DNA of 64,000 nt from the NCBI RefSeq assembly GCF_008119785.1, contig NZ_VSFA01000018.1, forward strand, positions 1 through 64,000, in the 5' to 3' direction. Shown in pieces: positions 53,242-64,000 of this stretch; the stretch's first letter is position 1; the number at the start of each line of letters is the position of its first letter. Made by a program: the position numbers and the translations under genes. Origin of the DNA: Micromonospora sp. MP36 (lineage in GTDB: Bacteria; Actinomycetota; Actinomycetes; Mycobacteriales; Micromonosporaceae). The notes under the pieces are model-generated. The model was not told where the DNA came from, searched no databases, and saw only the letters and a list, made by a program, of their open reading frames with translations.

Positions 53242-54285
53242 GTGCAGCAGCAAGTCCACCGCGCCCGCGATCTGGGCATCGTCGTGGGACCACTGCCCAC
53301 CGGACGGCACAACGCAATCACCGACGTCGCCGGGGTGGTGGTGGGGCATACCACCATCGACAACGGTCGCGACCTGCACACCGGGGTCACGGCGGTCGTA
53401 CCGGGTCAACTCGGCCCGGGACGGTGGTCCCTACCCGCCGCCGTGTACGTGGGGAACGGCTACGGGAAGCTGGTCGGCTCGACCCAGGTGGACGAACTCG
53501 GCGTGCTGGAATCACCGATCGTCCTCACCGCCACGCTGTCGGTGTTCCGGGCCGCGGACGCGCTGCTCACCTACCTGATGCACCGCCGTCCGGACGGTCT
53601 GTCGTTCAACCCACTCGTGGGCGAGACGAACGACGGCCACCTCTCGGACATCCGCCGACGCCCGATAACCGAGGAACACGTGCTCGACGCCATCACCCAC
53701 GCGTCCGGTGAACCCCCGGCGGAAGGCTGCGTCGGCGCGGGAACCGGCACCACGGCCTTGGGCTACAAGGCGGGAATCGGCACCTCGTCCCGGACGGTAC
53801 AGGTAGGCGACCGCTCGGTGACGGTAGGTGCCCTCACCCAGTCCAACTTCGGCGGCGTGCTGACCGCGCTGGGTGTCCCACTGCCGGTCGAGGAGCTGAT
53901 CCCGGCGGCCGACCGAACCGAACCACCCGGCAACTCCTGCATGATCGTGGTGGCCACCGACGCGCCCCTGGACGCCCGGCAGCTCGGCCGCCTCGCCCGC
54001 AGGGCCATCTTCGCCATGGGCCGGGTCGGCGCGGCGTACAGCAACGGCAGCGGCGACTACGCGATCGCGTTCAGCACCGCACAACCGGACCGGCCACCCG
54101 TCCCCGACTCGCAGCTCAACCCGGTCTTCGCGGCCGTCCTGGACTCGGTCGAGGAAGCCCTGCTCAACTCGCTCATCGCCGCCACGACCACCAGCGGCGT
54201 GGGAGGGCGCACGAGTCACGCCCTGCCACACGATGCCGTCGTCCGGCGGTTGGCGGCGGCCGGTCGGCTGACTCCGCCAGCCTGA
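53242..54285 (+). CDS. P1-family (DmpA/BapA-type) aminopeptidase
   Basis: The 347-residue N-terminal-nucleophile hydrolase is of the DmpA group: AITDVAGVVVGHTTI near the start, GCVGAGTGTTALGYKAGIGTSS, and Ser232 in PGNSCMIVVATDAPLDARQL. In this family the precursor cleaves itself just before the catalytic serine to give alpha and beta chains; here the residue before Ser232 is Asn231, whereas DmpA has Gly. Members release N-terminal D- or L-residues or beta-amino acids. GGAG precedes the GTG start. It converges on the hydroxyproline operon. Confidence 0.88.
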   Translation: MQQQVHRARDLGIVVGPLPTGRHNAITDVAGVVVGHTTIDNGRDLHTGVTAVVPGQLGPGRWSLPAAVYVGNGYGKLVGSTQVDELGVLESPIVLTATLSVFRAADALLTYLMHRRPDGLSFNPLVGETNDGHLSDIRRRPITEEHVLDAITHASGEPPAEGCVGAGTGTTALGYKAGIGTSSRTVQVGDRSVTVGALTQSNFGGVLTALGVPLPVEELIPAADRTEPPGNSCMIVVATDAPLDARQLGRLARRAIFAMGRVGAAYSNGSGDYAIAFSTAQPDRPPVPDSQLNPVFAAVLDSVEEALLNSLIAATTTSGVGGRTSHALPHDAVVRRLAAAGRLTPPA

Positions 54286-54301: not shown

Positions 54302-55831
54302 CTATGCGGTCATGCGGACACCGTCGACCGTGCGGGGAAGGCCGAGCGGGTTGGCCTCGCGCAGCTCCGGTGGGAGCAACGGTTCGGGGGTGTTCTGGTA
54401 GCAGACCGGGCGCAGCCACCGCTGGATCGCGCTGCTGCCCACCGAGGTCGAGCCGCTGGTGGAGGCGGGGTAGGGGCCGCCGTGATGCATGGCCGGGGCG
54501 ACCGTCACCCCGGTGGGCCAGCCGTCCACGACGACCCGCCCCGCGATCTCGCTCAGGCCGGCGACCAGTTCCGCCGCCGCGCCGTCCCGCTCGTCTGCGG
54601 CTAGGTGCACGGTCGCGGTGAGATTGCCCGGCAGGGCGCCGAGCACCGCGTCCCGCTCGGCCGCCGAGCCGTAGCGGACCAGCACGGTGACCGGCCCGAA
54701 GCATTCCTCCAGCAACTCCTGGTACGGCCCGCCCTCGACCAGCCGCGACGCGGCGACGGTCAGCAGGCCCGGCCGGACGGCCAGCGGCGCGGCGTCATCG
54801 CCGGCCTCCCCCGCCCGGAGCGGTTCGGCCACGGCGGGGAGCGCGGCACGGGAGCGGACGCCGGCGAGGAACGCGGCGCGCATGCGCGGGTCCAGCAGCG
54901 GTCCGGACGGTACGGCCGCCGCGGCGACCGCCTGGACGACGGCGTCACCGGCCGGCCCCTCGGGGAGGAGGACGAGACCGGGCTTGACGCAGAACTGGCC
55001 GAGGCCCTGGGTGTATGAGGCGGCCAGCCCCGCCCCGATCTCGTCCGCTCTGGTCTCGGCGGCCCGCGCGGTCACCACGACCGGGTTGAGGCTGCCCAGC
55101 TCGCCGTGGAACGGGATCGGCCGCGGCCGGGAGGACGCGATGTCGAACAACGCACGGCCGCCGCGCACCGACCCGGTGAACCCGACGGCCGCGGTCAGTG
55201 GGTGGCGGACGAGTTCCGGCCCCGCGTCGAAGCCGTGGACCAGGCGGACGACGTCCTCGGGCAGCCCGACCTCGGCCGCCGCCGAGCGGAGGATCCGGGC
55301 GCACAGGACCGAGGTGGCCGGATGGTCCGGGTGTGCCTTGACCACGACCGGGCATCCCGCGGCCAGCGCGCTCGCGGTGTCGCCGCCCGGCACGCTGAAG
55401 GCCAGCGGGAAGTTGCTCGCGGCGAAGACCGCGACCACGCCCAGCGGCACCTGGTAGCGCCGCAGGTCCGGGCGGGGCGCGGGCTCCGCCTGCGGGTCGG
55501 CATGGTCGATGGTCACGTCCAGGTAGGCGCCGGCTTCGACCACGTCCCCGAAGGCGCGAAGCTGGTAGCACGTGCGGGCGAGCTCGCCGGTGAGGCGTAC
55601 CCGGCCGAGCGCCGACTCCGCATCGGCGGCCGAGACGATCTCCTCACCGTTCTTCTCCAGGAGCGCGGCGGCCGTGCGGAGCAGGTCGGCCCGCGCGGCG
55701 CGGTCCCTCAGTGCCGGGGCGGCTGCGGCGGCGGCCCGCACCGCCTCGTCCACGTCGCTCGCCGTCGACTCGGTCGCGACGCGTCCCAGCGGCTGGCCGG
55801 TACGCGGGTTGGTGCTCAGCACGTCAGTCAC
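54302..55831 (-). CDS. Aldehyde dehydrogenase, probable 2-oxoglutarate semialdehyde dehydrogenase
   Basis: The 509-residue ALDH has catalytic Cys281 (GQGL-type turn appearing as GLGQFCVKPG) and Glu244 (HGELGSLNP). The compact KGSADH-like features AASNFPLAFSVPGGDTASALAAGCPVVVKAHP and the late FGPVTVLVRYGS are also present. Oxidising 2,5-dioxopentanoate to 2-oxoglutarate with NAD(P)+ is the last step of hydroxyproline catabolism, which fits the operon. The start is a GTG overlapping the end of the FAD-protein gene by eight bases. It is the last gene of the operon. Confidence 0.9.
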   Translation of the reverse strand: MTDVLSTNPRTGQPLGRVATESTASDVDEAVRAAAAAAPALRDRAARADLLRTAAALLEKNGEEIVSAADAESALGRVRLTGELARTCYQLRAFGDVVEAGAYLDVTIDHADPQAEPAPRPDLRRYQVPLGVVAVFAASNFPLAFSVPGGDTASALAAGCPVVVKAHPDHPATSVLCARILRSAAAEVGLPEDVVRLVHGFDAGPELVRHPLTAAVGFTGSVRGGRALFDIASSRPRPIPFHGELGSLNPVVVTARAAETRADEIGAGLAASYTQGLGQFCVKPGLVLLPEGPAGDAVVQAVAAAAVPSGPLLDPRMRAAFLAGVRSRAALPAVAEPLRAGEAGDDAAPLAVRPGLLTVAASRLVEGGPYQELLEECFGPVTVLVRYGSAAERDAVLGALPGNLTATVHLAADERDGAAAELVAGLSEIAGRVVVDGWPTGVTVAPAMHHGGPYPASTSGSTSVGSSAIQRWLRPVCYQNTPEPLLPPELREANPLGLPRTVDGVRMTA

Positions 55832-57311
55832 CGTCTCGTCCTCTCCATTCCGTCCCGGTCGCCTCGGCGGGCGTCGTGCCTTCGGCCAGGGCGGCGAGTT
55901 CCCCCAGGGGCACCGGCACGGCCAAGCTGCGGGTGGCCAGGCTACGCAGGTCCTCCGGCGTGGTCTCGCGACCGTGCAGACAGGCCGCGATCCCGGCGGT
56001 GGCGAAGCCGCACACCCGGCCCTGACACCAGCCCATCCCCGGCCGGGCGAACATCTTCAGCGTGCGCGCGTCCTCCGCACCGAGGTCGTCGTGCGCCCGG
56101 CGCAGGTCACCGTACGAGACCTCCTCGCAGCGGCAGACCGGCGTCGTCTCCGACAGCCACTGCGGCCACGCGCGCGGCACGGGATAGGTCCGGTGCATGG
56201 CGGCGGCGAACCGCCGCCCCCGCCGGACGGCGCGGCGCAGCCGCCTCATCGCGGCCGGATCGGCCGGACGACCGAGTTCGGCGGCGAGGGCCAACGCGCT
56301 CAGTCGTCCCTCGTGGACGGCCAGGGCCGCGCCGCCCACGCCGGTCGCCTCGCCGGCGACGTACAGCCCCTCGACGCTGCTGCGCTGGCGGTCGTCGACG
56401 GTCACCACGAGAGATCCGTCGACGTCCTGCGCGGTCTCCGCGCCGAGCATGAGCGGCAGTTCGAGCGATGGGGTGAAGCCCCAGCCGAGCGCCACGACGT
56501 CGGCGGCCATCTCCTCGTCCGGCCCGGCCGGGCGGCCGTCGCGGTCCACCCGCGCGATCCGCACCGCCTCGACCCGGTCCGTACCGAGGATCTCCCGGAT
56601 CACGGTCCTCGTCCGGTACGGGATGCGGTGGCGGGCCATGAGCGCCGCGTACTGCAGTGCCTCGACGCCCTTGCCGGGCGCGGAGATCGCGCCGACCGGG
56701 TGGCGCAGCCAACCGAGCGTTCCGTTGGCCTCGACGACGGCCGCGACGGTCACCCCGGCCCGGGCGAGGCCGGTGGCCACGGGCAGCAGGAACGGGCCGG
56801 TGCCGGCGACAACCACTCGCCGTCCCGCCGGGGTGCGGTGCCCCTTGAGCAGGGCCTGCACTCCCCCGGCGGTCATCACGCCGGGCAGGTCCCAGCCGGG
56901 GAGGGGCAGCTGCCGGTCGTATCCCCCGGGACACAGGATCAGCGCCCGCGCGCTGAGCGTACGGTCCGTCCCGCCGGCCGCGGCCGTGGTGGCCGTCATC
57001 TGGAGGGTGAACGCGCCGCTTTCCTCCCGGGTGATGAGCCAGGCCTGGTGGCCGGGGAGGTAGCGGATCCGGCCGGCCGCGCGGAGGGCGTACATCCGGT
57101 CCCGCAGCCGGGTGAAGGCCGGCCAGCCATGATGACCGGCGGGGTCGTTGGGGCGGGCGTGGTTCTCGTCGTAGTGCCGCCAGTACTGCCCGCCGGGCTG
57201 TCCGGCGGTGTCGATCAGGGCGACGCCGAGCCCGGCCTCGGCGGCCTGGACGGCGGCGGCGAGCCCGGCCGGGCCCGCGCCGACCACGGCGACGTCAGGC
57301 ACGTGCGGCAC
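55824..57311 (-). CDS. FAD/[2Fe-2S] oxidoreductase, large subunit of D-hydroxyproline dehydrogenase
   Basis: The 495-residue flavoprotein has an FAD-binding Rossmann motif (VAVVGAGPAGLAAAVQAAEAG) and a second nucleotide fold (VVVAGTGPFLLPVATGLARAG). A C-terminal BFD-like [2Fe-2S] domain has cysteines in TPVCRCEEVSYGDL and GWCQGRVCG. This is the alpha-subunit type of heteromeric octopine/hydrogen-cyanide synthase/D-hydroxyproline dehydrogenases (HcnB, OoxA, LhpF-like). It works with the ferredoxin-like and DAAO-like subunits encoded just upstream. The start is within the end of the ferredoxin gene. Confidence 0.9.
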   Translation of the reverse strand: MPHVPDVAVVGAGPAGLAAAVQAAEAGLGVALIDTAGQPGGQYWRHYDENHARPNDPAGHHGWPAFTRLRDRMYALRAAGRIRYLPGHQAWLITREESGAFTLQMTATTAAAGGTDRTLSARALILCPGGYDRQLPLPGWDLPGVMTAGGVQALLKGHRTPAGRRVVVAGTGPFLLPVATGLARAGVTVAAVVEANGTLGWLRHPVGAISAPGKGVEALQYAALMARHRIPYRTRTVIREILGTDRVEAVRIARVDRDGRPAGPDEEMAADVVALGWGFTPSLELPLMLGAETAQDVDGSLVVTVDDRQRSSVEGLYVAGEATGVGGAALAVHEGRLSALALAAELGRPADPAAMRRLRRAVRRGRRFAAAMHRTYPVPRAWPQWLSETTPVCRCEEVSYGDLRRAHDDLGAEDARTLKMFARPGMGWCQGRVCGFATAGIAACLHGRETTPEDLRSLATRSLAVPVPLGELAALAEGTTPAEATGTEWRGRDGD

Positions 57312-57600
57312 CGCCGTTCCTCCCGTCGCCGAGGTCCTCGGGGGCCGCGCCCGTCTCGGCGTCGTCGCCGAGGCGCATGCCGTCGGCGGCGGTGACCAGG
57401 CAGGCGCGCTGGTCGGGGACGCCGTCGACGGTGATCAGGCAGTCGAAGCAGACCCCGATGCCGCAGAACAGTCCCCGTGGCCGGCCGCCCTTGCGAGTGG
57501 TGCGCCAGTCGAGGATGCCGGCGGCGACCAGTGCGGCGGCGACGCTCTGGCCGGGCTCGGCCGCCACGGTGCCGCCGCGGAAGGTCATCTGGTGGGTCAT
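57295..57600 (-). CDS. [2Fe-2S] ferredoxin-like small subunit
   Basis: The 101-residue protein has an ubiquitin-like ferredoxin fold with three clustered cysteines and one distal (GLFCGIGVCFDCLITVDG and QRACL), the HcnA/LhpE pattern. It links electron flow between flavin subunits of a heteromeric D-amino acid dehydrogenase. The ATG overlaps the upstream stop (ATGA), and the last codons overlap the alpha-subunit start by 17 bases. The C-terminal tail is acidic and poorly conserved in type. Confidence 0.9.
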   Translation of the reverse strand: MTHQMTFRGGTVAAEPGQSVAAALVAAGILDWRTTRKGGRPRGLFCGIGVCFDCLITVDGVPDQRACLVTAADGMRLGDDAETGAAPEDLGDGRNGGAARA

Positions 57601-58754
57601 CGGAGCACCTCCTCGGCGTCGCCGAATCGGTCCGGGGCGAACGGCGTGAGGTCCAGGTCGGGCCGCTCCCCCACGAACGCCTGGGCGATCAGCCTGCCGG
57701 TCCCGGCGGACAGGCCGACACCGGCGCCCTCGTGGCCGCAGGCATGCCAGAGGTCGGGCGCGCGGGGGTCGGGGCCGATGACCGGCAGGTGGTCGGGACA
57801 GTACGGGCGGAAGCCGAGGTACGTGCGCATCGCGCGGACCTCCCGAAGGATCGGAAACAGTGCGATGGCCTTGGCCGCGAGGGTGCCGATCGCGGTGCCG
57901 GACACGGTCCGGTCGAAACCGACCCGCTCCCGGGACGCGCCGATGAGGATGGTGCCGCCGGCGGTCCCCTCGACGACGGGCGAGGTTTGCAGGGCCGCGT
58001 CGGAGCTGGCCACGTCGCCGACGTACTCGGCGGCGTACACCTTGTGGCGGATCGTCCGGGGCGGCATCGGCTGGGTGACCAGGACGAAGCCGCGCCGGGG
58101 CAGCACGGGGACGCGTACCCCGGCGAGGTCCGCGAGGTCGCCGGCCCACGTGCCAGAGGCGTTGAGCACCGCCCCGGCGGGGATGTCGCCGTCGGTGGTT
58201 CGCACGCCCGTCACCCGGGTGCCGTCGCGCAGGAACCCCGTCACCTCGGTGCGCGTACGCACCTGCGCGCCGCGCTCGCGGGCCAGCCGCAGCAGGTGCG
58301 CCGCGACCAGCATCGGCTGAACCTGGGCGTCCTGCGGGTAGAAGGCGCCCCCGACGAGTTCCGGGGAAAGATGCGGCTCGTAGTCGCGCAGTTCGGTCCG
58401 CGTGACGTCACGGACCTCGACACCGCCCTGGCGCTGCTGGACGGCGAGCGCGCGCAGCGATGCGACACTCTGCTCCGACGCCGCGACGACCAGGCCCCCC
58501 TTGGCCTCGAACTCCCACAGGTGGGCGTGTTCCGCGAGCTCCTCGCGCCAGACCCGCTGCGAGTACAACGCCAGGTCGAGCTCGGGGCCGGCCTCCTTGT
58601 CGGACACCAGCAGGTTGCCTTCGCCGGCGCTGGAGGTGCCCCCGGCGATCGCGCCGCGATCGACGACGACCACCCGGACCCCCGCCAGCGACGCGAAGTA
58701 TGCGCTCGCGGCGCCCACGACGCCGGCCCCGACGACCACCAGGTCCGCGGTCAT
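57597..58754 (-). CDS. DAAO-type FAD oxidoreductase, probable D-hydroxyproline dehydrogenase catalytic subunit
   Basis: The 385-residue protein begins with an FAD-binding motif (LVVVGAGVVGAASAYFASLAG) and has the D-amino-acid-oxidase-family features GGTSSAGEGNLLVSDKEAG, NASGTWAGDLADLAG and HACGHEGAGVGLSAGTG. It matches the beta subunit of heteromeric dehydrogenases (HcnC, OoxB, LhpB). With the two subunits encoded next it should oxidise cis-4-hydroxy-D-proline to the pyrroline. The ATG at 58754 keeps the Rossmann motif at residue 5; longer starts add an unrelated tail. Confidence 0.9.
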   Translation of the reverse strand: MTADLVVVGAGVVGAASAYFASLAGVRVVVVDRGAIAGGTSSAGEGNLLVSDKEAGPELDLALYSQRVWREELAEHAHLWEFEAKGGLVVAASEQSVASLRALAVQQRQGGVEVRDVTRTELRDYEPHLSPELVGGAFYPQDAQVQPMLVAAHLLRLARERGAQVRTRTEVTGFLRDGTRVTGVRTTDGDIPAGAVLNASGTWAGDLADLAGVRVPVLPRRGFVLVTQPMPPRTIRHKVYAAEYVGDVASSDAALQTSPVVEGTAGGTILIGASRERVGFDRTVSGTAIGTLAAKAIALFPILREVRAMRTYLGFRPYCPDHLPVIGPDPRAPDLWHACGHEGAGVGLSAGTGRLIAQAFVGERPDLDLTPFAPDRFGDAEEVLR

Positions 58755-58788
58755 GCCGCCGCCCGGAGACGCGGCGGCGCTGCGCTGA

Positions 58789-59484
58789 TCATTCGCTCTG
58801 TCCCGGCGCGTCCTTGGCGCCACCTGCCCACAGGCCTCGCACGTGCCTGATGTGCCGGTGCATCAGCAGCTCGGCCCCGGACGGGTCGCGGGCCTCGATG
58901 AAGTCCAGGAGCTCGTGGTGCTCGGCAGCCGAGCGGCCCAGCCTGCCGCTCTTCAGCAGCGGGGTCAGGCCGAGCAGCCGGGTCTGCGAACGCAGGTCGG
59001 CGACGACGTCCACCAGGAACCGGTTGCGGCTGTAGCCGAGCAGGGTCAGGTGGAAGACGTGGTCGGCCTCGATGTAGCCGACCAGGTCGCCCTGCTCCGC
59101 CGCGTCGACGATGGACTGCGCGAGCGTCCGCAGTTCGGGGATGTCCTCCTTCGGGATCACCGCCACGACGTCCCGCACGGTCGGCGGCTCGATGAGCAGC
59201 CGCACGGCGGCCAGGTTGTCGAGGTCCTCCTCGGACATCTCGGTGATCCGGAAGCCCTTGTTCGGGTGGGGGACGACCAGGCCCCCCTTCACCAGATCGA
59301 GCATGGCCTCCCGCACCGGGGTGGGCGAGACGCCGAGCTGCGCACCCAGCGCGGGCGCCGAGTAGACCACGCCGGGCTCCAGCTTGCCGGAGATGATCGC
59401 GGCGCGCAGGGCCTCCCGGGTCCGGTCGCGGAGGTTTTCCCTGCGGCCGACGCCGGGCAGTTCCGGGACGGGCGCCGGGCTCAC
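58789..59484 (-). CDS. GntR-family (FadR/FCD) regulator
   Basis: The 231-residue protein has an N-terminal GntR winged helix (LRAAIISGKLEPGVVYSAPALGAQLGVSPTPVREAMLDLVKGGLV) and an all-helical FCD domain. Likely metal-binding residues occur in DHVFHLTLLGYS and HRHIRHVRG. FCD regulators usually sense a carboxylic acid; here the ligand may be a hydroxyproline intermediate. It is encoded inside the operon, with its GTG overlapping the epimerase stop. Confidence 0.9.
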   Translation of the reverse strand: MSPAPVPELPGVGRRENLRDRTREALRAAIISGKLEPGVVYSAPALGAQLGVSPTPVREAMLDLVKGGLVVPHPNKGFRITEMSEEDLDNLAAVRLLIEPPTVRDVVAVIPKEDIPELRTLAQSIVDAAEQGDLVGYIEADHVFHLTLLGYSRNRFLVDVVADLRSQTRLLGLTPLLKSGRLGRSAAEHHELLDFIEARDPSGAELLMHRHIRHVRGLWAGGAKDAPGQSE

Positions 59485-60482
59485 AGCAGGAATCCCGCGG
59501 GGAACGGGTCGGTGGGGTCGAGGTGGAACTGCGAGGTTGCGGTGATCCACGCCCGCCCGGTGATCGACGGCAGCACGGCGGGCAGCGACCCGACCGTGGT
59601 CTCCTCGAGCAGCCGGCCGGTGAAGCGGGTGCCGATGAACGACTCGTTGACGAAGTCCTCACCGATGCCCAGTTCGCCGCGCGCGTGCAGCTGGGCCATC
59701 CGGGCGCTCGTGCCGGTGCCGCAGGGGGAACGGTCGAACCAGCCGGGGTGGATGGCCATGGCGTGCCGGGACAAGGCGGCGGTCGAGCCTGGGGCCTTCA
59801 GATACACATGGTGGCAGCCGTTGATGTCGTGGCGCTCGGGGTGGACCGGACGGTCCTGCTCGTTCACCGCTTCCATGATCGCCATACCGGCGGCGAGCAG
59901 GTCGCCGGCGCGGGACCGGTCGAAGGGCAGCCCCAGGTCCGCCAGATCGACGATCGCGTAGAAGTTGCCGCCGAAGGCCATGTCGTACGCGACGTCGCCG
60001 AAGCCCGGCACCGCCACCTTCCGGTCCAGCGCGTAGGAGAACGACGGGACGTTCTGGATGGTGACCGACTCCGCCGCGCCGTTGCGCACCGCCACGGAGG
60101 CGACGACCAGCCCGGCGGGGGTGTCGAGCCTGATCGTGGTCACCGGCTCGACCACGGGCACCATCCCGGTCTCCACGAGCACGGTCGCGACCCCGATGGT
60201 GCCGTGGCCGCACATCGGCAGCAGGCCGGTGACCTCGATGAAGAGCACGCCGTAGTCGGCGTCGGGACGGGTCGGCGGTTGCAGGATGGCGCCGCTCATC
60301 GCGGCGTGGCCCCGCGGCTCGTACATCAGCAAGGTGCGGATGTCGTCGCTGTGCTCCATGAACCACAGCCTGCGCTCGGCCATGGTCGCCCCGGGGATGG
60401 TGCCCATGCCGCCGACGACGACCCGGGTGGGCATGCCCTCGGTGTGTGAGTCGACGGCGTGGAACGTGCGGCGGGATCTCAT
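59481..60482 (-). CDS. Proline racemase family protein, probable 4-hydroxyproline 2-epimerase
   Basis: The 333-residue protein has both catalytic cysteines of the family: Cys91 in PMCGHGTIG and Cys254 in SPCGTGTSAR. Two Cys, rather than Cys/Thr, indicate a reversible racemase or epimerase, not a dehydratase. Within this operon the reaction is most likely trans-4-hydroxy-L-proline to cis-4-hydroxy-D-proline. The ATG overlaps the upstream stop (ATGA-type). Proline racemase activity is possible too; specificity depends on active-site residues not assignable by eye. Confidence 0.92.
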   Translation of the reverse strand: MRSRRTFHAVDSHTEGMPTRVVVGGMGTIPGATMAERRLWFMEHSDDIRTLLMYEPRGHAAMSGAILQPPTRPDADYGVLFIEVTGLLPMCGHGTIGVATVLVETGMVPVVEPVTTIRLDTPAGLVVASVAVRNGAAESVTIQNVPSFSYALDRKVAVPGFGDVAYDMAFGGNFYAIVDLADLGLPFDRSRAGDLLAAGMAIMEAVNEQDRPVHPERHDINGCHHVYLKAPGSTAALSRHAMAIHPGWFDRSPCGTGTSARMAQLHARGELGIGEDFVNESFIGTRFTGRLLEETTVGSLPAVLPSITGRAWITATSQFHLDPTDPFPAGFLL

Positions 60483-61384
60483 CGGTAGCCCTTGCCGAGG
60501 ACGGCCTCGGTGTCGGCGATGATCCTCGCGGCGATCTCGGGCGCCAGTGGCAGTCGCGGCGGGCGGCAGGCACCGCCCTTGCGGCCGGAGACGTCCATCG
60601 ACAGCTTGATCGACTGGACGAACTCGGTCTTGGAGTCCCAGCGCAGCAACCGGTGCAGGTCGCGGTAGACCGGCAGCGCCTTGGCGAGGTCGGCGGGGTC
60701 GCCCGAGGTGGCCAACCGGTAGAGCTCCACGGTGGTCTTCGGGATCATGTTCGGGTAGCCGGCGATCCAGCCGACGGCTCCGGCGAGGCCCAGCTCGAGC
60801 AGCACGTCGTCCGCGCCGACCAGGACGTCCAGGCCGGGTGCCAGCTCGGCGATCTCGTACGCCCGGCGGACGTCGCCGGTGAACTCCTTCACGCCGACGA
60901 TCAGGCCCTCGTGGAACAGTTCGGCGAGCAGCGCGGGGGTCAGGTCGATCTTGGTGTCGATCGGGTTGTTGTAGGCGACGACCGGCAGCCCGGCCCGGGC
61001 GACCTCGCGGTAGTGCGCGACGACGGCCCCGCGATCGGCGCGGTAGGCGTTCGGCGGCAGCAGCAGGACGGAGGTGGCCCCGGCTGCGGCCGCCTGCTCG
61101 GCCCAGCGGCGGGCCTCGAGCGCGCCGTAGGCGGCGACGCCGGGCATGATGCCGAACCCGGTGGGGGCGGCCTGGACCGCCACCTCGACGACCTTCGCCC
61201 GTTCCTCCGGGGTCAGCGTCTGGTATTCGCCGAGCGAGCCGTTGGGCGTCACCCCGTCGCAGCCGGCGGCTGCGAGGAACCGGACGTGCTCGGCGAACGC
61301 GTCGTAGTCGACGGAGAGGTCGTCATGGAAGGGCAGTGCGGTCGCGACGTGAACGCCACGCCACGGCCTGGCGGGGGTGGTCAT
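60479..61384 (-). CDS. DapA-family protein, probable pyrroline-4-hydroxy-2-carboxylate deaminase
   Basis: The 301-residue TIM barrel belongs to the dihydrodipicolinate synthase/N-acetylneuraminate lyase family, with Schiff-base Lys166 (VGVKEFTGD), Tyr138 (VVAYNNP) and GVTPNGSLGEYQTLTPEER. In hydroxyproline operons this family converts the pyrroline to 2-oxoglutarate semialdehyde and ammonia. Its position between epimerase and peptidase genes supports that role. The ATG overlaps the peptidase stop (ATGA). Confidence 0.9.
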   Translation of the reverse strand: MTTPARPWRGVHVATALPFHDDLSVDYDAFAEHVRFLAAAGCDGVTPNGSLGEYQTLTPEERAKVVEVAVQAAPTGFGIMPGVAAYGALEARRWAEQAAAAGATSVLLLPPNAYRADRGAVVAHYREVARAGLPVVAYNNPIDTKIDLTPALLAELFHEGLIVGVKEFTGDVRRAYEIAELAPGLDVLVGADDVLLELGLAGAVGWIAGYPNMIPKTTVELYRLATSGDPADLAKALPVYRDLHRLLRWDSKTEFVQSIKLSMDVSGRKGGACRPPRLPLAPEIAARIIADTEAVLGKGYR

Positions 61385-62742
61385 GCTGGGTCCTCCTCGG
61401 GTCGTATCGCAGTGCCGGACATGGTTTGCGCTGCCATCCACTTCTCCAGCCCGCCGGCGTCCAGCGGCAACGCGCGGGACAGCACCTCCCCGCCGTCCGG
61501 CGTGACCAGGAGGTCGTCCTCGATGCGCACGCCGATCCCGCGCAGCTCCGGCGGCACGGTCAGGTCGTGCGCGTGGAAGTACAGCCCGGGCTCGACGGTG
61601 AGCACCATGCCCGGTGCCATGACCGCGCCCTGATAGGCCTCCGGTGCGGCCCGGCCGCAGTCGTGCACGTCCAGCCCCAGGTGATGGCCGATGCCGCACA
61701 CCAGATAGCGCCGGTGGTGCTGGCCGCTGTCGGAGAGTGCCTCGTCCACGGAGACCGGCAACAGTCCCCAGTCCGCCAGTCCCCGCGCGATCACCTCCAT
61801 CGCCGCGTGATGGAAATCGGTGAACCGGCGGCCGGGGCCCACCGCCGCCAGCCCGGCCCGATGAGCCCGTTCCACCAGGTCGTGCACCTGCCGCTGGACG
61901 GGAGAGAAGCGGCCGGCGGCGGGGAGCGTGCGGGTGACGTCGGCGGTGTAACAGCTCCTGACCTCGACGCCCATGTCGAGCAGGAGCAGCTCGTCCGGCA
62001 GCACCGGGCCGTCGCAGCGCACCCAGTGCAGGGTGGGCGCGTGCGAGGCACTGCCGACGATCGTGGCGTAGCCGGGGCCGTTGCCGTACGCCCGGGCGTA
62101 CCGGTCGAAGGTGCCCTGCAGCCACCGTTCCCCCGGCCCGGCGATCGCGGTGGGGACCTCGCGGACGACCGCGGCGAAGCCCTCGACCGTGCGGTCCACG
62201 GCCTCGCGGAGCTGCCCGATCTCCCACTCGTCCTTGTACATGCGCAGTTCGGCGAGGGTCCGGCTCACCTCCTCGTCCCGGGTCACGTCCTCGGTGAGCT
62301 CAGCGAGCGGCCGGACCTCGACGCCCAGCGCCCGCGCCCAGTCGGCCAGTCCGGGAGCGGCCCCGACCCACAGCTCGCCGTACCTGGCGTCGGTGAAGAA
62401 GCCGGGTTCGCCGGGTCGGGCGGGCGGCGGCAGGTAGAGCGTGGCGTCGCCGTCGCGCAGCACCACGACGGCGTTCTCGATTCCGCAGCCGGTCACCCAG
62501 ACGAAGTCGCTGTCCGGACGGAAGTCGTACGTCGTGTCGTTGCTGCGCACGGGCGCCTCTCCCGCGGCGAGCACGATCGTGCGGCCGGGAAGCGCCTCGG
62601 CCAGCCGGGCCCGATGGTCGGCGGCCGCCTCGGCGGCGCCGGGCACGACCGGCGGGGTGCGATCCGGCACGCCCCAACCCGTGTTCATGTACTGGGTGAA
62701 CGTCGCGATCTCGGCCAGCTTCGGCGGCCTGCCGTCACGCAT
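61381..62742 (-). CDS. M24 Xaa-Pro aminopeptidase
   Basis: The 453-residue protein has an aminopeptidase-P N-terminal domain (about 20-165) and a pita-bread domain. The five metal ligands lie in LLLDMGVE, TADVTR, GIGHHLG, TVEPGLYF and VRIEDD. Such enzymes remove the residue before proline or hydroxyproline, or split Xaa-Pro dipeptides. Being in the hydroxyproline operon, it probably releases hydroxyproline from imported peptides. It has no signal peptide, so acts inside the cell. Confidence 0.92.
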   Translation of the reverse strand: MRDGRPPKLAEIATFTQYMNTGWGVPDRTPPVVPGAAEAAADHRARLAEALPGRTIVLAAGEAPVRSNDTTYDFRPDSDFVWVTGCGIENAVVVLRDGDATLYLPPPARPGEPGFFTDARYGELWVGAAPGLADWARALGVEVRPLAELTEDVTRDEEVSRTLAELRMYKDEWEIGQLREAVDRTVEGFAAVVREVPTAIAGPGERWLQGTFDRYARAYGNGPGYATIVGSASHAPTLHWVRCDGPVLPDELLLLDMGVEVRSCYTADVTRTLPAAGRFSPVQRQVHDLVERAHRAGLAAVGPGRRFTDFHHAAMEVIARGLADWGLLPVSVDEALSDSGQHHRRYLVCGIGHHLGLDVHDCGRAAPEAYQGAVMAPGMVLTVEPGLYFHAHDLTVPPELRGIGVRIEDDLLVTPDGGEVLSRALPLDAGGLEKWMAAQTMSGTAIRPEEDPA

Positions 62743-64000
62743 CGGTGACTCCTCCCCCTTGTTCGCGGACCAGCTCGGTCAGCCGGGCGAAGACCCTGCC
62801 GTCCGCACGGACGCCGTCGTGTTCGTACTCGTTGGTGACCCAGGTCTGGACGTTGCCGACCCGGGCGGCGGTGTCCAGTTGCAGCCCGGCGTCGACGTAC
62901 ATGTCGTCGTGGTAGACGGCGGCCGCCACCGGGATCTCGTTGCCGGCCAGCCGGTCGAGGTCGTAGAGCTGCGGCCACTCCTCCCGGGCGGCCAGCAGCT
63001 CGACGGCGCCGCGGAACGGCCGCAGCTCGGCGATCTCCTCGAACATCCAGGGATAGATCATCTCGCCGGTGAACAGCAACGGCCTGGCATCCTCGGCAAA
63101 CTGCGGATGCCGCGCGCGTTCGGCCTGCGCCGCCCAGCCGGTGGCGGCGGGGCCGTGTCCGTAGATGCTCTCCTGCAGGGCCGCGAACAGCGGGTTGTCG
63201 CGGTAGGCAGTCCGCTCCAGCACCTGCTGTAGAAACGTCGCCGACAGCTCGTCGCCCGAGAATGTCTCGTCGAGCAGCCAGTGCATGCGCTCGTATCCGG
63301 GCTTCATGCCGAGGTCGATGCCGAGGGACTGCAACCGCCGTACGGTGAGCACGTCGCCGTCGGGCAGCAGCACCTCACCCTCGGCCAGCCGGTCGGCGAT
63401 CCGGCCGACCTGCGCCACCTGGTGCGGGTAACGCCGGTAGAACTGCCGGTTCTTCGCCTCGACACGAGGATAGGTGCGCCGGTAGACCTCGGCGGCCGAC
63501 GGGTCGAGGCCGGGCAGGCCGCCGGTGACATAGCAGGCGCTCAAGCCTTCCGGGGCCTTCGACAGGTACGTCAACGTGATGAAGCCGCCGTACGACTGCC
63601 CGAGGGTGGACCAGCGGCGGCCACCGAAGACGGTCTTCCGCAGGTGCTCGTGGTCGGCGACGATCGCGTCGGCCCGGAAGCAGGCGAGAAAGTCGGCAGC
63701 GTCCGCAGCGGTCGCGAACCCGCTCATCCGGCGGCCGTCGACGCGGGTGCTGCGGCCGGTGCCACGCTGGTCCACCAGGACGACGCGCTGGTCGCACAGT
63801 GCCTGGCCGAGCCAGCCGGAGCGGTCGAGCGGACGCGGACCCTTCCCGCCGGGTCCGCCCTGCAGGTAGACCAGGCACGGCAGGTCCTCGCCGGCCCGTA
63901 CCGGATCGACGATCTCACGAGCGAAGAGCTGGATGGTGCCGCGCGCCGGGTCGGACCAGTCCAGCGGCACCTCGGACACGTGGTCGCGGACGCGCATGCC
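62735..64000 (-). CDS. Alpha/beta hydrolase, proline-iminopeptidase-like (S33), 5' end near window edge
   Basis: The hydrolase has the S33 oxyanion motif (LVYLQGGPGG), the DQRGTGRS stretch typical of proline iminopeptidases, and the nucleophile elbow LGQSYGGF. A late catalytic His in VYHDDMYVDA is likely. Prolyl aminopeptidases remove N-terminal proline. An ATG at 63997 gives 420 residues, but the frame stays open to the edge and the conserved start may lie outside. It overlaps the Xaa-Pro peptidase gene by eight bases and is the first visible gene of the operon. Confidence 0.85.
   Translation of the reverse strand, partial: GMRVRDHVSEVPLDWSDPARGTIQLFAREIVDPVRAGEDLPCLVYLQGGPGGKGPRPLDRSGWLGQALCDQRVVLVDQRGTGRSTRVDGRRMSGFATAADAADFLACFRADAIVADHEHLRKTVFGGRRWSTLGQSYGGFITLTYLSKAPEGLSACYVTGGLPGLDPSAAEVYRRTYPRVEAKNRQFYRRYPHQVAQVGRIADRLAEGEVLLPDGDVLTVRRLQSLGIDLGMKPGYERMHWLLDETFSGDELSATFLQQVLERTAYRDNPLFAALQESIYGHGPAATGWAAQAERARHPQFAEDARPLLFTGEMIYPWMFEEIAELRPFRGAVELLAAREEWPQLYDLDRLAGNEIPVAAAVYHDDMYVDAGLQLDTAARVGNVQTWVTNEYEHDGVRADGRVFARLTELVREQGGGVTDA

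Follow-up and report, generated by a model that had tools for sequence, protein, structure and literature searches.

Hydroxyproline (Hyp) is plentiful in plant cell walls and in the animal matrix, but there is hardly any description of how soil bacteria link the freeing of Hyp from protein to its breakdown. At the end of a 64,000-nucleotide stretch of Micromonospora sp. MP36 (hereafter the window: the first 64,000 bases of contig C90, which is 98,409 bases long and belongs to a draft genome of 9.17 Mb), an operon places the genes of a hydroxyproline pathway behind those of two proline-specific peptidases, a prolyl-aminopeptidase-like hydrolase of family S33 and an Xaa-Pro aminopeptidase (XPAP). 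Do the peptidases belong to the pathway, and which polymer would supply them? We find that an operon for Pro/Hyp peptides is well supported, and we consider it quite likely that this operon is controlled by a HypR-type regulator and turns imported Pro/Hyp oligopeptides into alpha-ketoglutarate. Gene content, gene order, conservation, catalytic motifs and the operator footprint were observed at the locus itself; for the route from the epimerase to alpha-ketoglutarate and for repression by HypR in Streptomyces coelicolor, we rely by analogy on what is published for relatives.

A conserved operon with two peptidase genes at its head

Firstly, we examined the gene block. Nine minus-strand genes extend from 54302 to 64030 (Table 1), each with a confirmed start and stop and free of internal stops; the S33 gene starts at contig position 64030, 30 bases beyond the window edge. 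All genes of the initial annotation are present and their Pfam matches agree with its domain calls, while the ninth gene, which it had left unnamed, encodes a GntR/FCD regulator. NCBIfam pointed to the same superfamilies, although every listed model stayed below its curated cut-off. The nine genes had been described as overlapping, which holds for seven of the eight junctions (overlaps of 4-17 nt; in operon order from S33: -8, -4, -4, -4, +34, -4, -17, -8 nt), the exception being the 34-nt gap between the GntR and beta-subunit genes; they had also been called fused, and taken literally this is wrong, since the genes are coupled without fusion. Epimerase, DapA-like deaminase and three-subunit dehydrogenase stand together as in the SCO6289-93 type of operon.

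Secondly, we compared the locus among close relatives. When 121 genomes (our own and 120 relatives) were searched for the epimerase, matches at E <= 0.001 came from 25, and an orthologue at >60% identity from 20, our own included. The surroundings were compared for the 19 other orthologue genomes, with more upstream DNA for the six closest. The nine genes occur in identical order in five of these six (L033-L037), and the sixth (L038) lacks only the XPAP gene; the arrangement is not a product of chance, because the order recurs in five of six closest relatives. The gene order differs in the remaining 13 orthologue genomes, and in three of these 13 (L043, L046, L048) the cluster includes another Xaa-Pro aminopeptidase, of about 45% identity.

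Thirdly, we located an operator. The sequence AGTGCAATGGCACA lies at contig 64102-64115, outside the window and about 70 bp 5' of the S33 start, and is the single match to this exact 14-mer in the genome. The pattern TAGG(A/G)TCAGTGCAATGGCACACC-N-TACTG precedes S33 in seven of seven genomes compared, within a flank that has mostly diverged except among the nearest relatives. It contains TGCAATGGCAC, which differs by one mismatch in 11 from TGCAATGTCAC, the operator bound by S. coelicolor HypR (PMC6608401; published sources are cited here from excerpts of their text), so that a HypR-like box stands before the operon in all seven genomes and binding is predicted. The regulator is a FadR-type GntR protein whose recognition region is nearly identical to those of the regulators in the Streptomyces hyp loci compared.

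In a set of 99 hyp loci, the published form of the box with up to one mismatch gave 118 matches vs 2 for the reversed control, and the exact form 32 vs 0. The nearest gene was GntR for 38 boxes, DapA for 23, DAO for 15, an Xaa-Pro aminopeptidase of the other type for 12 (several of them in divergent promoters), S33 for 7 (six genomes, one genus) and OppA, a peptide-binding protein gene, for 4, with three others at 1 each; the remaining boxes are intragenic or near no labelled gene. Boxes nearest to peptidase and peptide-binding genes in other loci, together with the conserved order and the box before S33 in 7/7 genomes, bear out the earlier proposal that the peptidases are part of the Hyp operon. 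An exact box also lies between XPAP and DapA in two loci (L037:11132, L085:9048); in the window these two genes overlap and no box is left between them. This suggests a history in which the S33-XPAP pair was joined in front of a dapA gene that was already under HypR control.

Table 1. Genes of the operon in Micromonospora sp. MP36, in operon order (window coordinates unless marked as contig)
Product	Length (aa)	Position	Strand	Basis
S33 alpha/beta hydrolase, prolyl-aminopeptidase-like	431	contig 64030-62735 (in window 62735..64000)	-	Pfam Abhydrolase_1
Xaa-Pro aminopeptidase (XPAP; M24 + AMP_N)	453	61381..62742	-	Pfam, structure alignment
DapA-like deaminase (Lys166, Tyr138)		60479..61384	-	Pfam DHDPS, motifs
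4-hydroxyproline 2-epimerase, proline racemase superfamily	333	59481..60482	-	Pfam PF05544, E 7e-132
HypR-type GntR/FCD (FadR subfamily) regulator	231	58789..59484	-	Pfam GntR + FCD
D-hydroxyproline dehydrogenase beta subunit (DAO family)	385	57597..58754	-	Pfam DAO, orthologue order
D-hydroxyproline dehydrogenase gamma subunit (2Fe-2S)	101	57295..57600	-	Pfam Fer2_4, cysteines
D-hydroxyproline dehydrogenase alpha subunit	495	55824..57311	-	Pfam
Alpha-ketoglutarate semialdehyde (KGSA) dehydrogenase	509	54302..55831	-	Pfam Aldedh, motifs

The two peptidases

The S33 protein combines an alpha/beta hydrolase fold and Ser-Asp-His motifs with homology to prolyl aminopeptidases. Its motifs GQSYGG, YHDDMYVD and NEYEHDG provide a candidate triad of Ser146, His404 and Asp375 or Asp376. 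Among solved structures its best match is 8jgn, Arabidopsis AT3g61540 (E 4e-106, residues 7-413); for the small proline iminopeptidases the E value is no better than 2e-5, and the NCBIfam proline iminopeptidase models score far under their cut-off. The XPAP carries AMP_N and M24 domains, aligns to aminopeptidase P structures and has all five putative metal ligands (Asp256, Asp268, His353, Glu384, Glu408), whose roles we assume to be those of E. coli PepP. In a tree of 43 Xaa-Pro aminopeptidases it falls within a clade of 16 rows with support of 100/100, separate both from the type linked to M9 collagenases and from the other copy in its own genome (contig C301); since the rows come mainly from hyp loci, the tree shows separateness, not association. 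In the same tree, three genomes of this genus have Xaa-Pro aminopeptidases that cluster with Dactylosporangium. For comparison, a review cites an S33 prolyl aminopeptidase that is highly active on acetylated hydroxyproline (PMC9147577, excerpt). Both the S33 subfamily and the aminopeptidase P clade are only generically annotated, and a function is predicted for them here.

The source polymer

We next consider where the peptides would come from. The initial annotation named collagen and gave plant extensin as the alternative; its Pro/Hyp-peptide substrate agrees with the operon reading, while collagen found no support and extensin fits better. The collagen explanation holds that secreted proteases cut collagen outside the cell and that the operon digests Gly-Pro-Hyp peptides and uses their Hyp. 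We judge it rather unlikely, and we lean towards peptides of plant hydroxyproline-rich glycoproteins, which we rank above collagen; collagen as the favoured source was accordingly set aside.

The comparison draws on a class-wide survey in which the epimerase was found in 106 of 394 genomes at E <= 1e-70. Co-location was counted in the 80 genomes of >=3 Mb, our own included (the other 26, all <=2.4 Mb, were left out); two of the 80 anchors are weak, that of G126 matching in part and that of G493 at 43% identity. M9 was found no more than 15 kb from the epimerase in 15/80 genomes vs 0.13 expected, AMP_N in 16 vs 0.40, S33 in 5 vs 0.23 and GH127/146 in at least 12 vs 0.59, where the expectations come from an even spread of genes over genome sizes that were rounded, and the genomes are related, not independent. 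Collapsed by genus and tallied by hand, these counts become 2, 5, 3 and 2; one genus gives 14 of the 15 M9 cases and another 10 of the 12 GH127/146 cases among the matches listed. All statements on absent GH127/146 near the epimerase likewise refer to the matches listed (E down from about 1e-12). With that scope, M9 and GH127/146 never both lie near one epimerase in the 80 genomes; at least two of the 15 M9 genomes hold GH127/146 elsewhere, and none of the 12 GH127/146 genomes holds M9.

The collagen explanation draws on the M9 cases, all in actinobacterial genomes, and on the secreted-looking M64, S15 and S8 genes that lie directly upstream of the operon in the same direction. HypR of S. coelicolor represses a putative collagenase gene (PMC6608401, excerpt), and a Colwellia collagen cluster holds peptidases together with Hyp genes (PMC7883544, excerpt). 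In G496, S33 (60% identity) lies 3.5 kb from the epimerase and M9 16.9 kb from S33, with the epimerase between them; the separation of S33 from M9 is thus not absolute, because this genome has both. Against these points, our own genome has no M9 match, and no S33 lies within 15 kb of any M9 in the 80 genomes, where 11 AMP_N genes do; the M9-linked Xaa-Pro aminopeptidases that were typed belong to the other type. Nor are the upstream proteases conserved among the six close relatives, and nothing close to the HypR box was found ahead of them. M9 and GH127 were also searched for in 17 of the 20 epimerase genomes among close relatives: M9 occurs in only three, those of L043, L046 and L048, of which G064 and G070 have it at <=8.5 kb from the epimerase and G062 on another contig.

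The loci that resemble the S33-XPAP pair most closely point to plant material. S33 at >=70% identity occurs in six genomes, our own included, and XPAP adjoins it in all six; of the five others, four have GH127 at <8 kb and none has M9 within 15 kb. In L195, L197, L198 and L199 one strand carries, in order, GH127, OppA, OppB, two OppD/F genes, S33 and XPAP, with a gap or an unlabelled permease-size frame between OppA and OppB; the Opp labels rest on tblastn at 22-56% identity. GH127 and Opp genes adjoin the pair in four of the five other genomes with a close S33. After XPAP come the regulator and the whole Hyp set (L198, L199), DapA (L195) or the regulator only (L197). A HypR-type box stands right before GH127 in L195, in the extended form CAGTGCAATG-N-CACAC-N-TTACTGGG like that of the window genome, and another before S33 in L196; none with up to one mismatch was found in L197-L199. 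In Nonomuraea rhodomycinica (L085), the end of a GH127 gene, a peptide-binding protein, a permease, S33, XPAP and the Hyp set follow one another in one direction, and two Microbacterium loci have S33, XPAP and a PF07944 gene before dapA (GH146-type in L094). GH127 enzymes remove arabinose from the hydroxyprolines of extensin (PMC4454575, excerpt).

The view that all PF07944 genes are of the extensin-type GH127 had to be narrowed. Those of L085 and L094:17598 match GH127 structures best, while L094:6030 and L047 match GH146-type structures, the GH number of structure 5opj being our assumption. A GH127/146-family gene lies 3-4 kb from the epimerase in at least 10 genomes of one genus, among them G238 (L200), whose gene shares 72% identity with the GH146-type one in L047. 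For a characterised GH146 enzyme, the targets are beta-1,3 linkages in AGP and in arabinan (PMC10850190, excerpt).

M9 and the second Xaa-Pro aminopeptidase type stand beside the Hyp cluster in L043, L048, L130, L148 and L201, and these loci would be a collagen version of the same idea. We tentatively propose, with some doubt, a HypR-controlled actinobacterial operon for the full use of plant glycoprotein (glyco)peptides, made up of GH127, Opp, S33 with XPAP and Hyp catabolism, with a parallel collagen version that has the other XPAP type and M9; the window would hold a plant form that lost, or never had, import and sugar removal. Its operon is a relative of the GH127-Opp-S33-XPAP-Hyp operon and not a full member, as it has neither a linked arabinofuranosidase nor linked Opp genes. 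If one regulator box ties together peptidases, importers, collagenases and Hyp catabolism, the source polymer could be predicted from the gene neighbourhood, a prediction that is directly testable with defined peptides.

Another explanation is that the operon serves free hydroxyproline released elsewhere, the peptidases being a general salvage of proline peptides that shares the promoter by chance. Among 80 named loci, window-type XPAP occurs in at least 6, the other type in at least 17, S33 in at least 6 (56-79% identical), M9 in at least 15 (many matches only 24-28% identical) and OppB in at least 22, these counts being lower bounds where contig ends cut loci; named loci with close epimerases are actinobacterial. 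Most clusters thus lack both S33 and window-type XPAP, and of the 56 genomes that possess S33 only 5 have it close to the epimerase, which suits the free-hydroxyproline explanation. We nevertheless hold it improbable: the operator stands before S33, ahead of the whole operon; XPAP belongs to a fully supported clade of its own, apart from the C301 copy; co-location exceeds the uniform-placement expectation; and the second XPAP type also has nearby HypR boxes, several in divergent promoters.

Several observations weigh against the reading of a HypR-controlled Pro/Hyp-peptide operon fed by plant material. In three of the six close-S33 genomes (G427, G245, G209) the epimerase is separate from the S33-XPAP pair, so the pair can work outside a Hyp operon. 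The peptidases probably act on Pro/Hyp peptides, as judged from sequence, and a preference for Hyp over Pro is putative; an AlphaFold model of S33 built on a 7-sequence alignment had a mean pLDDT of 33 and was discarded. The epimerase narrowly missed the cut-off of its NCBIfam model PRK13971 (358.6 bits vs 376), a score threshold and not a functional feature. The 12-mer GTGCAATGNCAC gave 1 match in our own genome vs 1 for the reversed control (1 to 3 in each of the six other genomes; seven-genome total 12 vs 4), and the motif relaxed to two mismatches gave 10 vs 11 in our own genome. A wider regulon there was rejected, since relaxed and exact-12-mer matches stand at control level, and because genome counts equal the control we claim only the operator at the S33 site, on its place and conservation.

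The plant source is suggested by analogy with the loci of relatives. Our own genome yielded no M9 collagenase and, among the matches listed, no GH127/146; no OppA or OppB homologue was found across the whole 98.4-kb contig, which holds only generic ABC ATPase matches of 28-34%. The search for a peptide transporter upstream, advised by the initial annotation, therefore came back empty, though homologous operons carry one, and the closest OppA homologues in the genome (34-36% identical) lie on another contig. With M9, GH127/146 and a linked transporter all missing and the upstream proteases unconserved, plant glycoprotein and collagen are both candidate source polymers in this organism. In one close relative, an OppA-type gene 40% identical to that of L195 lies about 10 kb upstream of S33 on the same contig and strand (G020:C32:167966-169396, L202) and is a possible transporter for this type of operon.

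Hydroxyproline pathway enzymes

The assignment to 4-hydroxyproline catabolism is supported by the enzymes themselves. Cys91 (MCGHG) and Cys254 (DRSPCGTG) of the epimerase, both named earlier, are confirmed, and neither varies in an alignment of 17 of the 20 known orthologues. The residues that discriminate substrates were mapped by hand from an alignment to 6j7c, which we take to be TlProR: Ser63 at site 1, His225 at site 4 and Ile244, neither Phe nor Tyr, at site 5. The spacing agrees with the numbering of PMC4364671, in the excerpt of which Phe at site 1 marks proline racemases and His at site 4 hydroxyproline epimerases; the window enzyme, with no Phe at site 1 and His at site 4, carries HypE-type residues at these sites. 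The DapA-like enzyme retains Lys166 and Tyr138 in a motif check, and a DapA-type gene is found in 76 of the 80 named epimerase loci. The KGSA dehydrogenase retains Cys281 and Glu244 (nearest structures 1eyy, E 2e-118, and 3v4c, E 7e-106). The residues of the DapA-like enzyme, the aldehyde dehydrogenase, XPAP and S33 are assigned the roles known for their families. In the dehydrogenase, the gamma subunit has its 2Fe-2S cysteines at positions 46, 51, 54 and 67, and the alpha subunit combines a pyridine nucleotide-disulphide oxidoreductase fold with a BFD 2Fe-2S domain.

A racemase acting on proline, with a dehydrogenase acting on D-proline, is very improbable and was rejected: the best solved-structure matches of the epimerase do carry proline racemase labels, and the NCBIfam proline racemase model scores highest (367.6), yet far under its cut-off of 556, while Ser63 replaces the racemase Phe at site 1, His225 is epimerase-like, site 5 is Ile244, the DapA-type deaminase and KGSA dehydrogenase suit 4-hydroxyproline and not proline, and an S. 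coelicolor epimerase mutant kept its growth on L-proline (PMC6608401, excerpt).

Side observations concern other epimerase loci. A second racemase-superfamily gene (about 38%) lies nearby in L040 and L041. The Hyp cluster of L040 also holds aconitase X and ornithine cyclodeaminase genes, which suggests use of 3-hydroxyproline. In L051:9728-10731 (G103, a 74% complete genome), the epimerase frame is in two pieces, through a frameshift or an assembly error.

Proposed route

For the operon as a HypR-controlled system for Pro/Hyp peptides, we infer the substrates of the peptidase steps and their natural source, and propose the following route. Oligopeptides would enter through a general peptide permease, suggested because no dedicated one is linked at the locus. 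XPAP would remove the residue standing before Pro or Hyp, and S33 would then remove the exposed N-terminal Pro or Hyp; by acting in turn, they could degrade Ser-Hyp-Hyp... or Gly-Pro-Hyp repeats stepwise. The epimerase would convert trans-4-hydroxy-L-proline to cis-4-hydroxy-D-proline, which the alpha-beta-gamma dehydrogenase would oxidise; the DapA-like enzyme would turn the product into alpha-ketoglutarate semialdehyde, and the KGSA dehydrogenase would yield alpha-ketoglutarate. The GntR repressor would sit on the box before S33 until a Hyp-derived metabolite relieves repression.

Comparison with published systems

The Hyp route, its regulator and a putative collagenase in the regulon (PMC6608401), as well as a collagen cluster with peptidases (PMC7883544), are known from the excerpts cited. 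The nearest system is S. coelicolor SCO6289-SCO6293 with HypR (SCO6294), with which the window operon shares the families of epimerase, deaminase and alpha-beta-gamma dehydrogenase, a FadR-type GntR repressor and an operator one mismatch in 11 apart. S. coelicolor lacking the epimerase gene SCO6293 does not grow on L-Hyp, and its operon is induced by L-Hyp and has the putative collagenase in its regulon. As described there, the S. coelicolor operon has no peptidases or KGSA dehydrogenase and its regulator has its own promoter (all PMC6608401); in the window, the regulator lies inside the operon and the box before the S33 peptidase gene.

The Colwellia cluster likewise combines peptidases (YpdF, PepQ) with Hyp epimerase, dehydrogenase and KGSA dehydrogenase, which weakens the earlier suggestion that both peptidases beside a Hyp pathway are new. 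It differs in its secreted M9 collagenase, PPIase, MFS and TonB transport and in its peptidase names (PMC7883544, excerpt), and the string S33 is absent from the text of that paper. The operons of N. rhodomycinica L085 and of G326/G401 share S33, XPAP and the full Hyp set on one strand with the window; there a GH127 beta-L-arabinofuranosidase and Opp-type genes precede, neither of which is on the window contig. A survey of the proline racemase superfamily describes DAAO, DHDPS and aldehyde dehydrogenase neighbours as marks of 4-hydroxyproline epimerases; its excerpt does not describe peptidases as part of the pathway neighbourhood, and the word occurs once (PMC4113996). In the titles and abstract openings that searches of open-access literature brought up, we found neither an S33-Xaa-Pro-aminopeptidase-Hyp operon nor its GH127-Opp form.

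Neighbouring genes

Directly upstream of the operon, at contig 64277-75065 (L002:2278-13066), the same strand carries genes for M64, an S15 Xaa-Pro dipeptidyl-peptidase, S8 and a LuxR-type regulator. The three peptidases look secreted and might feed the operon. G056 is the one genome of the six close relatives with M64 and S15, and its S8 is reduced to a remnant (L033:18170-18517); apart from this remnant, S8 and the LuxR-type regulator occur only in our own genome. Since the upstream protease genes are unconserved and no sequence close to the HypR box was found ahead of them, we rejected these four genes as fixed parts of the operon. On the other side, an S58 (DmpA-like) peptidase gene at window 53242-54285 is convergent with the operon and preceded by beta-lactamase-family and ROK genes; it was rejected as an operon part because none of the six close relatives has a match next to its operon. 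In L034, L035 and L036, a 601-aa gene lies directly 5' of S33 on the same strand; in L035 its product is a gamma-glutamyltranspeptidase, and a CHAT-domain gene lies further out.

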